From Bacteroidales bacterium (GTDB taxonomy: Bacteria; Bacteroidota; Bacteroidia; Bacteroidales; UBA12077): a stretch of DNA of 33,527 nt. Location of the stretch: the NCBI GenBank assembly GCA_027859205.1, contig JAQIBH010000068.1, positions 1 through 33,527 of the forward strand, read 5' to 3'. A program made the position numbers and the translations under genes. This document shows positions 1 to 21,432 of this stretch, one piece after another. The notes beneath the pieces were generated by a model, which was given only the letters and a program-made list of their open reading frames with translations, ran no database searches and was not told the origin of the DNA. Position 1 is the first letter of the stretch; every line of letters begins with the position of its first letter.

Positions 1-1869
1 TATAATTGGAGTAACGGAGCATTAACACAAGATATTGTTAACTTACCGGCAGGCACTTATAGTGTTACAATAACAGATGATAATTCTTGTACATTACAAA
101 TTTCAGATCGTGTAATTTCCGAGCCGGAATTTGATTTAATTGCATCCACATCCATTGTTGATGAACCTTCTTATAATGGAGATTTTGATGGTAGAATCAG
201 GGTCGATGGTGCCGGGGGCAATGATGCACCTTTTACGTATCAGTGGAATGATCCTGGTAGTCAGACATCGCAAATAGCAGATGGACTGGATGCCGGGTTT
301 TACACGGTTACAGTTACTGATTTTAAAGGATGTGCAGCAACAGATAATGTTAACCTTACAGAACCGGATGTTCTCAGTGTGTCTGCCATTGTAGGAGACT
401 TAAATTGCTTTGATAATAATAGTGGTACAATTGCTTTAACAGTAACAGGAGGGACAGTACCAATGAGTTACCTTTGGAGTTCTTCAGATGGTATCGGATT
501 AGTTGCGGTTGATAAAAACCAAAGTGGTTTATCTGCTGGAACTTATGAAGTTATAGTAACTGATACATATGCATGCGAAGCTGTTGATTCTTTTCTTGTA
601 TCAGAACCGATACTTTTACAAATAGATACAGAAAATAAAACCGATGTTACAACTTGTAATGGAGACAATACAGGAACAATAACAATTGCAGCTTCTGGAG
701 GAACGGGTGTTTTAACTTACACATTAAACCCCGGAGCAGTTCAAACTAATACTACAGGAATATTTACAGGTTTAATTGCAGGAACATATAACGTTGACGT
801 AGATGATGTAAATGGATGTGGACCAATTACTTCAAGTACAATAGTAATAGGAGAACCAACAGTAATAAGCATTGCAGAAACATCAGTAAATGATATAACA
901 TGTAATGGATTAGCGGATGGGAGTATAGATATTACAGCATCGGGAGGAACTGTAGCAACAGTTTATACTTATTCATGGATTACAACCGAAGGATCTGGAT
1001 TAGTTGCGTCTTCCGAAGACCAGACAGGATTAGGAGCAGGAACATATAATTTAACCGTAACAGATGATAATACATGTACTGGAATTACTTCAATAGTAAT
1101 TACAGAACCAACAATTTTAAATATAACAGAAACTGCAGTATTAGATATAACATGTAATGGCTTAACAGATGGAAGTATTGACATAACAGTTTCAGGAGGT
1201 ATTCTATCATATACTTATTCATGGACTACAACTGATGGATCTGGATTAGTTGCAGCTTCGGAGGATCAAACAGGATTAGGAGCAGGCACTTATGATTTAA
1301 CTGTAACAGATGGTAATTTATGTACAGGAACTGGTACAATTGTAATTATTGAACCAACTGCAATAAGTATCGATTCGGAAAACTTTACAGATGCTACTAC
1401 CCAAACTGCAGCTGATGGAAGTGTAACCTTAACTGCTTCAGGCGGAACAGGAACTTTAGAGTATACATTATCTCCAGGAACTATAATAAATACTACTGGT
1501 GTATTCAGTAACTTAATCCCAGATGATTATACAGTGAATGTAACGGATGATAATGCTTGCGGTCCGGTAAGTTCTAACACAATTACTGTGGGATATCCAG
1601 ATGCAATTATAGATATTTCAAAATCTGATAAAATAAAAATGTATCCAAATCCTACATCTGATAAATTATTTATTGAGATTGATTATGAATTTGATAATCT
1701 GAAAATAGAAGTATTAAGTATTTCGGGTCAGATTATATTAAATAAAGAAATTAAATCTCACGGTATAACGAAGGAGGTGTTAGATTTATCGGCTTATCCA
1801 AAAGGGGTGTATTTTATTAGAATTTATAATAGTACGTTTATTTTTAAAGATAAAATATTATTGCAATAG
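1..1869 (+). CDS. SprB repeat-containing surface adhesin, 3' part, with T9SS type A C-terminal sorting domain (5' end outside window)
   Basis: Frame 1 is open from base 1 (YNWSNGALTQDIVNLPAGTYSVTITDDNSC...), so the track start at 379 (GTG) is internal. Repeated 'GTYxxTVTDxNxC' SprB units; C-terminus 'KIKMYPNPTSDKLFIEI...GVYFIRIYNSTFIFKDKILLQ' is a typical T9SS CTD. Confidence 0.92.
   Translation, partial: YNWSNGALTQDIVNLPAGTYSVTITDDNSCTLQISDRVISEPEFDLIASTSIVDEPSYNGDFDGRIRVDGAGGNDAPFTYQWNDPGSQTSQIADGLDAGFYTVTVTDFKGCAATDNVNLTEPDVLSVSAIVGDLNCFDNNSGTIALTVTGGTVPMSYLWSSSDGIGLVAVDKNQSGLSAGTYEVIVTDTYACEAVDSFLVSEPILLQIDTENKTDVTTCNGDNTGTITIAASGGTGVLTYTLNPGAVQTNTTGIFTGLIAGTYNVDVDDVNGCGPITSSTIVIGEPTVISIAETSVNDITCNGLADGSIDITASGGTVATVYTYSWITTEGSGLVASSEDQTGLGAGTYNLTVTDDNTCTGITSIVITEPTILNITETAVLDITCNGLTDGSIDITVSGGILSYTYSWTTTDGSGLVAASEDQTGLGAGTYDLTVTDGNLCTGTGTIVIIEPTAISIDSENFTDATTQTAADGSVTLTASGGTGTLEYTLSPGTIINTTGVFSNLIPDDYTVNVTDDNACGPVSSNTITVGYPDAIIDISKSDKIKMYPNPTSDKLFIEIDYEFDNLKIEVLSISGQIILNKEIKSHGITKEVLDLSAYPKGVYFIRIYNSTFIFKDKILLQ
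121..1591 (+). repeat. Tandem SprB-type coding repeats, period about 240-252 bp
   Basis: Recurrent 'gaacc(g/a)' boundaries (E-P motif) at about 121, 361, 604, 853, 1105 and 1351, each unit ending in GTY..VTD.N.C. The units at 853 and 1105 are also similar at DNA level ('gatataacatgtaatgg...gatgg(g)agtat'). Confidence 0.8.
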
Positions 1870-1890
1870 ACGACGGATGAGAATATTACA

Positions 1891-2020
1891 GAAGCTGTCT
1901 CAAAAGTAATAAAACTGTCATTCCCTTGAAAAAGGGAATCTCATACTTATCATATAAACAGGTAATTACGAGATCTCCAATCAAGTTGGAGATGACAAAA
2001 GTGACTTTTGAGACGGCTTC
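1891..2020. repeat. Nested inverted-repeat element (MITE/REP-like), possibly also acting as a terminator
   Basis: Outer arms GAAGCTGTCTCAAAAGT (1891-1907) and ACTTTTGAGACGGCTTC (2004-2020), 16/17 complementary in DNA and fully paired with one G-U in RNA. Inner hairpins ATTCCCTT-GAAA-AAGGGAAT (1920-1939) and ATCTCCAA-TCAAG-TTGGAGAT (1973-1993), plus TGTCA/TGACA pairing. T tract follows at 2021. Confidence 0.75.
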
Positions 2021-19452: not shown

Positions 19453-21432
19453 ATGAATCCAAACATTCGAAATATTGGTATTCTTGCACATGTTGATGCA
19501 GGTAAAACGACCATAACAGAGAATTTTCTTTTTTTAAGTGGAGCAACAAAGCAACTTGGCCGTGTTGATGCAGGAACTACACAAACAGATTTTTTAGACG
19601 TAGAGCGAGAACGTGGTATTTCTGTTCGATCATCAATTACTACTTTTGTTTGGGAAGAAACAAAAATTAATTTAATTGATACTCCCGGGCATGTTGATTT
19701 TTCAGCAGATGTAGAACGTATTTTGAGAGTCTTGGATTGTGCCATTTTGGTCATTTCCGCAGTTGAAGGAGTACAAGCTCATACTGAAACTTTATGGAAT
19801 GCCTTGCTAAACTTAAATATCCCCACAATTATTTTTATCAATAAAATTGATAGAGTTGGATCTGATGTTGATTTGGTCGTAAAAGAAATAAAAAAGGAGT
19901 TAGCCGATAAATTGGCTGTTATTTATAATGTTTCAAGAGAAGCGTCAAGTGACGTGCGAATTGAATCTATTTGGAATGAAACTAATATTAATGATTCAAT
20001 TCTTGAAGCAATTGCTAATACTGATGAGGTTATTCTTGAGAAATATTTGGATGAGGAAAAACTAACATTTCTAGAGCTAGATAATTCATTCGTAAAGGCT
20101 GTACATAACTGTAATTTATTCCCCGTTTTAATGGGCTCAGGAAAAAACACACTTGGGATTAAAGAACTTTTAAATGCTAGCTTACATTATTTCCCAGCAC
20201 CAAAAGCAAATACAACAGGAGCCTTGTCGGCCTTTGTGTTTAAACTTACTCACGATAAAACTATGGGGGCAATTGCTCATGTTAAAATTTACTGTGGAGT
20301 AATTAAAAATCGTGAAGTTATTAAAAATGCAAGCCAAAATATTGAAGAAAAAATAACACAAGTACGAAAGTTAATTTCCAATAAATTTGAAGATATAAGT
20401 GAAGCAAAAGCAGGTGATATTGTTGGAATATGGGGTTTAAAAAATACAAGAGTGGGAGATGTGTTGGGCGAATTTACAAAAGTATTACCAGATGAAGTTA
20501 GTTTAAGAACACCTTTACTTACAGTTCAAGTAAAACCTGCCCGTCCGGCAGGCGGGGCTGAAAATGACAAAGATTATCCAGCATTAGCTGTGGCCTTACA
20601 AATTCTTTCTAAAGAAGATCCGAGTTTGGATTTTGAGTGGTTACGTGAAGATAAAGAGTTACATGTTAAAATAATGGGATGGATTCAAATAGAAGTGTTA
20701 GAAAGAATTCTTGAAAATCGATTTAATATAAAAGCAAAATTCGATGACCCAACAGTAATTTATAAAGAAACTCCTGCAAAAAAAGGTGAAGGATTTGTAC
20801 AATATTGGATGCCGAAACCCTGTTGGGCTATTATGAAATTTATTATTGAACCTGGCGAACGAGGAAGTGGAGTCGTTTATGAATCGAAAATAAGTGTTGA
20901 TGATGTTCAAAGAAAATACCAAAACGAAGTCGAGCGTACAATTCCAAAAGCATTAAAACAAGGAATAAAAGGATGGGAAGTTACTGATTTAAAAATTACT
21001 TTAATTGAAGGTGAAGATCATCAAGTACATTCAAACCCAGGCGATTTTATTGTAGCAACTCCAATGGGAATAATGAATGGCTTGGTAAAAGCCGGTACAA
21101 CCTTATTAGAACCATTAATATCATTTAAAATATCTGCCATTGAAGATTTGTTGGGAGCAATTACAAGTGATATTACACAAATGCGAGGCAGCTTCGATAG
21201 TCCTGAAATGGGAAATGAAAAGTTTATATTAACAGGAATTTTGCCCGTTGCAACTTCACTGGACTTTCCTGTTCGATTAAGTTCTCGTTCAGGTGGTAAA
21301 GCTAAAATATCAACTAAATTTCATGGTTATCAGGAATGCACTGATGAATTAGGTCAAAAAAGAGAATACAAAGGTATTAGTCCACTGGATACTTCAAAAT
21401 GGATTTTAAAAGCAAGAAAAGCTTTGCAGTAG
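19453..21432 (+). CDS. TetM/TetO/TetQ-family ribosomal protection GTPase (EF-G paralogue)
   Basis: 'NIGILAHVDAGKTTITENFLFLSGA', 'ERERGISVRSS', 'IDTPGHVDFSADVERILRVLD', 'FINKIDR', EF-G-like domains 2-5. Whether it confers resistance cannot be judged. Confidence 0.88.
   Translation: MNPNIRNIGILAHVDAGKTTITENFLFLSGATKQLGRVDAGTTQTDFLDVERERGISVRSSITTFVWEETKINLIDTPGHVDFSADVERILRVLDCAILVISAVEGVQAHTETLWNALLNLNIPTIIFINKIDRVGSDVDLVVKEIKKELADKLAVIYNVSREASSDVRIESIWNETNINDSILEAIANTDEVILEKYLDEEKLTFLELDNSFVKAVHNCNLFPVLMGSGKNTLGIKELLNASLHYFPAPKANTTGALSAFVFKLTHDKTMGAIAHVKIYCGVIKNREVIKNASQNIEEKITQVRKLISNKFEDISEAKAGDIVGIWGLKNTRVGDVLGEFTKVLPDEVSLRTPLLTVQVKPARPAGGAENDKDYPALAVALQILSKEDPSLDFEWLREDKELHVKIMGWIQIEVLERILENRFNIKAKFDDPTVIYKETPAKKGEGFVQYWMPKPCWAIMKFIIEPGERGSGVVYESKISVDDVQRKYQNEVERTIPKALKQGIKGWEVTDLKITLIEGEDHQVHSNPGDFIVATPMGIMNGLVKAGTTLLEPLISFKISAIEDLLGAITSDITQMRGSFDSPEMGNEKFILTGILPVATSLDFPVRLSSRSGGKAKISTKFHGYQECTDELGQKREYKGISPLDTSKWILKARKALQ
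20536..20556 (+). repeat. GC-rich palindromic repeat in frame within the TetM-family gene
   Basis: CCTGCCCGTCCGGCAGGCGGG in an AT-rich gene; CCTGCC (20536-20541)/GGCAGG (20547-20552) stem; adds codons for PARPAGG. Confidence 0.65.

Follow-up and report, generated by a model that had tools for sequence, protein, structure and literature searches.

The window, i.e., the whole 33,527-nt stretch of DNA that was analyzed, carries a gene for a translational GTPase whose reading frame accommodates a short palindrome. The following features were mapped at this locus:

19453..21432, forward strand: host gene, TetM-like / EF-G-like translational GTPase of 659 aa (ORF and domain matches)
20536..20556, forward strand: 21-bp palindromic mini-element CCTGCCCGTCCGGCAGGCGGG, read as PARPAGG in the host gene
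20536..20541, forward strand: hairpin arm 1, CCTGCC (DNA fold)
20542-20546, forward strand: loop CGTCC (DNA fold)
20547..20552, forward strand: hairpin arm 2, GGCAGG (DNA fold)
20553..20556, forward strand: unpaired 4-nt tail CGGG, on the other strand CCCG 5' of the hairpin (DNA fold and family anatomy)
20535..20557, forward strand: insertion junctions, with GTAAAA ending at 20535 and GCTGAA starting at 20557 (alignment against seven empty orthologues)

The 21-mer CCTGCCCGTCCGGCAGGCGGG lies in frame within the 659-aa ORF (19453-21432) and folds as DNA into CCTGCC-CGTCC-GGCAGG plus the CGGG tail, a 6-bp hairpin of -5.8 kcal/mol. It contains no stop codon in any of the six frames and is single in the window at ≤3 mismatches (chance expectation 0.00). 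Sequence, ORF and DNA fold bear out the first-pass annotation, which had described an in-frame palindrome of 21 nt and seven codons (PARPAGG) in a TetM-family GTPase. The host protein contains the full set of EF-G domains, with the insert positioned after domain 2 (to ~residue 339) and before EFG_III (from ~369); the seven added residues in this domain II/III linker are probably tolerated rather than useful. Against the NCBI ribosomal-protection model, the GTPase scores 610.9 bits, under the cut-off of 775, and a role in resistance should therefore not be taken for granted. An AlphaFold model of the host protein had a mean pLDDT of 46.6 and was excluded from reasoning. TetM-like GTPase orthologues were found in approximately half of the genomes of the genus.

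The host gene was aligned with eight complete congeneric orthologues (76-80% identity). PARPAGG is present in the window gene and in genome G019 only; the claim of a 7-aa insertion held, with one of the eight congeners filled and seven empty. In the empty orthologues, TVQVK or its equivalent is joined straight to the next residue, and the DNA of all seven reads GTAAAA followed directly by GCTGAA, or an equivalent, with no scar. The insert thus amounts to exactly +21 bp / 7 aa relative to the empty orthologues, and in the DNA alignment with these seven the window site shows no duplication of target sequence. The seven residues are also missing from Tet(M), TetB(P) and a Paenibacillus homologue; the earlier comparison with TetM, suggesting a protein about seven residues longer, was correct.

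Pattern searches of the window's own 3.6-Mb genome recovered 7 copies at ≤1 mismatch and 11 at ≤3, so the 21-mer is not single there, and the reversed-sequence control gave 0 copies. The family conforms to the pattern CC(N)1-2G, CCTGCC, 4-5 nt and GGCAGG. A wider core, TGCC-N1-4-CGGCAGGC, was present in 17 of 20 genus genomes, with 0 to 61 matches each, perfect palindromes scoring on both strands in these counts. At ≤1 mismatch, the 21-mer was detected in 18 of 396 Bacteroidota genomes, one of which has 34 copies. At least 120 stretches of GTDB species genomes, some of them isolate genomes, contain the exact 21-mer, and they span more than ten phyla; those among the matches listed are Bacteroidota, Patescibacteria, Margulis-, Elusi- and Omnitrophota, Nitrospirae, Bacillota, Planctomycetota, Chloroflexi and others. 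The highest counts were found in two termite-gut Bacillota bins (124 and 63 copies); among isolates, Mucilaginibacter sp. PPCGB 2223 has about 35 and Flavivirga sp. 57AJ16 about 15. In the richest genome, Th196P1bin11 (G415, locus L276; 124 copies at ≤1 mismatch in ~3 Mb), 12 copies lie within one 14-kb stretch, some of them nested. Carriage by phages was considered as a vector; the IMG/VR matches came mostly from one termite-gut bin and gave no evidence for it.

A genus-wide comparison took in eleven further genes with palindrome insertions, ten from the window's own genome and one from G019 plus L007. Those identified are miaB, thrC, uvrA, wecB and arsM, the remainder being known by locus only. 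Relatives have clean empty or shorter sites for most of the eleven; in wecB and miaB the insertion site is too variable for a clean reading. A target-site duplication was evident in none of the eleven. Two of the genes form graded series. For the L007 gene, the number of extra residues is 0 in G019, G010 and G002, 7 in G007, and 14 in G000 (the window's own genome), G014, G015 and G017, the +14 state corresponding to a second element lodged within the first. For uvrA, it is 0 in most species, 7 in G000, and 14 in G018 and G014; the second elements of the latter two differ and occupy separate positions close to the middle of the first element. Among the matches listed, about 7 of 129 exact GTDB copies are nested in another copy.

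Unit length was found to depend on coding context. All 20 clear copies in ORFs (exact-grammar units, genus loci) are 21 bp long, and the 40 units outside ORFs comprise 24 of 21 bp, 14 of 20 bp and 2 of 19 bp (Fisher p=0.0005); looser unit parsing gives weaker values, and an in-gene frame-breaking unit such as a 20-mer destroys its ORF and is scored as noncoding, which is part of the same effect. The restriction of genes to 21-bp units is expected if insertions are random and frameshifting ones are then purged. Exact copies are also rarer in ORFs, with 55% located there vs 83% of random positions.

The flanking bases at -1/+1 are complementary in 53 copies vs 32.5 expected (p=6e-5), and flank folds stronger than -6 kcal/mol were obtained for 50% of copies, 25% of random sites and 35% of re-paired flanks. 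At L123, L142, L151, L166 and L134, a long perfect palindrome holds the copy in its loop. Direct flank matches were near chance in 128 copies, leaving no signal of target-site duplication. These data indicate a modest preference of insertion for the tips of existing palindromes; since many copy neighbours are already palindromic, intergenic repeats may account for some of the preference for hairpins. In the Ignavibacteriae genome IGN16 (G373; L278-L283, L134), many of the 34 copies are paired in inverted orientation, at a spacing of 128-149 bp, as parts of a larger composite repeat, with one member per pair in the loop of a host palindrome, between CACCGTCATT and TATGACGGTG.

The window and G019 share an identical 21-mer (21/21) at the same site. 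The G019 gene is closer in DNA identity to two orthologues lacking the insert (82.7% to G017 and 81.5% to G007) than to that of the window (only 76.5%). At third codon positions, the window and G019 genes are 53% identical, and of 620 other codon-aligned 21-nt windows along the gene, not one matches exactly between the two. A window+G019 clade was rejected by the gene alignment (AU p=0.0085). Judged from these alignments, the shared insert is better explained by repeated insertion at a single nucleotide, or by conversion among copies, than by simple inheritance, and re-insertion at the same nucleotide in different species is probable; this stays unproven because the protein tree of the host GTPase is poorly resolved. 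Alternatively, the insert could be an ancient one that was conserved in these two and precisely lost several times elsewhere, or the identical copy could have spread through gene conversion.

In sum, the family is dispersed, has clean empty and filled sites, nests within its own copies, passes an in-frame length filter and occurs in frame in conserved enzymes. Dispersal, empty/filled sites, nesting and in-frame filtering support the first-pass view that the palindrome is a mobile mini-element which the protein tolerates, in principle a counterpart of Rickettsia palindromic elements (RPEs); mobility as such is suggested by insertion polymorphism between species. The best explanation, to which we assign a probability of roughly 0.75, is a non-autonomous palindromic mini-element that copies itself to palindrome tips without target duplication. 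Such an element would be dispersed and normally 21 bp long, with forms of 19-20 bp outside genes, would spread by copying to new sites, leaving no target duplication, and would land preferentially on the tips of existing palindromes, its own kin included. The short hairpin, the lack of duplication and the hairpin-tip preference fit with movement via single-stranded DNA, where a putative trans-acting nuclease or transposase would recognize the short hairpin as well as hairpins extruded at the target. Gene clustering around the copies returned no recurrent family beyond common housekeeping or sensor families, and an association of related palindromes with RAYT transposases was confined to a few genus loci.

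Known palindromic repeats share much of this behaviour. RPEs are in-frame insertions of 105-146 bp in Rickettsia (PMC2229807); like the Wolbachia palindromic elements, they are palindromic, dispersed, located in frame in conserved genes with empty orthologues, and thought to be selfish and tolerated (PMC2229807). In-frame insertion of this kind was found in the host gene and the eleven further genes, most with clean empty or shorter sites. RPEs, however, have terminal inverted repeats of ~12 bp and are confined to one genus, whereas the present units measure 19-21 bp, lack separate terminal repeats and are identical across phyla; at 21 bp vs 105-146 bp (PMC2229807), the insert was rejected as an RPE proper. 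REPs of the GTAG and CGTC types also combine a short tag with a hairpin, reach high copy numbers and sometimes lie in ORFs or tnpA-REP genes (PMC3733652, PMC6006769). REPs can sit inside ORFs and within other palindromes, and CGTC REPs have no dedicated transposase (PMC3733652). Unlike REPs, the 21-mer has a GC-rich stem, bears neither a GTAG nor a CGTC tag, and is missing from most RAYT loci. Where GTAG REPs carry a GTAG/GTGG foot tetranucleotide, its tag is CCCG/CCTG and the flanks have no GTAG consensus. CGTC REPs are defined by a terminal CGTC, AT at the stem base and a CCA tail (PMC3733652); the 21-mer has CC...GG termini and a GC-only stem base. MITEs such as Correia/NEMIS, ERIC and RUP are likewise small non-autonomous inverted-repeat elements, some fused in frame (PMC2229807), but they measure 70-300 bp and mostly have target-site duplications, of which the 21-mer shows none. 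The 21-mer family behaves like RPE and REP elements but lacks their defining sequence features, and it seems to be a very small mobile element without an existing name. Searches of the open literature with the exact 21-mer and the translated peptides found no paper, though it may have been described elsewhere before, and broader searches returned RPE, REP and MITE work only.

Related palindromes flank 2 of ~20 RAYT-type loci in the genus. One RAYT gene of the window's own genome (L252, G000:C89:5300-8900, ~1537-2210) contains one in-frame stop and is flanked by inverted units GTAGCT-CCTGCCTGCCG(G)YAGGCAAGG-TTYAGCTAC, which resemble double-foot REPs in which the palindrome either forms the core or lies within the loop as a nested copy. 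Another (L254, G001:C8:316900-320100, ORF 1181-1991, minus strand) contains an in-frame palindrome (CLPAGKAGM), cf. tnpA-REP subclass 2.4.

These loci raise the question of whether the family is a REP-type element mobilized in trans by RAYT (TnpA-REP, an HUH tyrosine transposase), like the GTAG REPs. The anatomy of a short tag and a small hairpin and the absence of target duplication agree with this, as do the inverted GTAGCT-palindrome-AGCTAC units on both sides of the degenerate L252 gene, the direct palindrome copies flanking the RAYT at L256 and the in-frame palindrome of L254. The RAYTs of the genus match NF047646, and both double-foot REPs and in-frame REPs inside tnpA-REP genes are known, notably in the Bacteroidetes-rich subclass 2.4 (PMC6006769). 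Against it, the window-type 21-mer (≤4 mismatches) is missing from 29 of 30 RAYT loci in 12 genomes that have the 21-mer; the single match is a 4-mismatch variant, and the exact 21-mer occurs at 0 of 30. The two draft MAGs with the highest counts (124 and 63 copies) yielded no Y1 transposase, the 21-mer has no GTAG tag, and the palindrome at L252 and L256 may just be nested in the loop of a real REP. On balance, we consider mobilization by RAYT unlikely, with perhaps a one-in-four chance of being correct.

Somewhat less likely still is that palindromes spread by hairpin-primed template switching, i.e., replication or repair slippage requiring no dedicated enzyme. In favour of this are the insertions at the tips of hairpins or into the middle of earlier copies, the absence of target duplication and the failure to find a partner gene, but slippage normally duplicates local sequence, and here sequence- and length-specific units lie at unrelated sites, with an identical 21-mer across phyla. 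That same strict conservation, together with the enrichment outside genes, could be read as a motif retained for function (uptake signal, terminator, nucleoid or gyrase site), with incidental genic copies. This is improbable, as the motif is patchy within the genus (0 to 61 matches per genome), sits in the middle of conserved enzymes while missing from their orthologues, and is not accompanied by any Rfam family match in the window. That the residues are ancestral and were lost in relatives, or that they stem from misassembly, can practically be dismissed: nothing beyond the general risk of MAGs speaks for either view, none of the outgroups (Tet(M), TetB(P) and Paenibacillus) has the residues, the separate genome G019 has the same insertion, and isolates carry the 21-mer.

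If the preferred reading of a self-copying, tip-targeting mini-element is true, 21 bp is enough for a selfish palindrome, and such elements may cross phyla unchanged and insert blocks of seven residues into conserved proteins. A stronger version, in which a single active 21-bp unit, among the smallest known, moves across phyla by non-HUH machinery, targets hairpin tips including those of its own copies and re-inserts at identical sites across species, is put forward only tentatively. Most surprising are the tiny size, the cross-phylum sequence identity, the self-nesting and the probable re-insertion at the same nucleotide. The nested 0/+7/+14 series in orthologous genes provides a natural record of insertion order, and movement of REP-like palindromes becomes testable in cultivable hosts, e.g., Mucilaginibacter and Flavivirga. 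For annotation, peptides such as PARPAGG, LPAGRQG and RLPDGQG can derive from the element.

A different palindrome family was encountered in a wecB-like gene (L443, G005:C114), where CCCTGAGCGAAGTCGAAGGG is read in frame as SPLSEVEG near the site occupied by the CCTGCC family in the gene of the window's own genome; its relative TTCGACTCCGCTCA doubles as an insertion target at L092, L093 and L117. In a Chitinophagaceae MAG, Sediminibacterium and Mucilaginibacter (L132, L145, L150), the exact 21-mer lies at the same codon boundary of an apparent alaS, GD[PARPAGG]YFK, which may be due to inheritance, transfer or repeated insertion.
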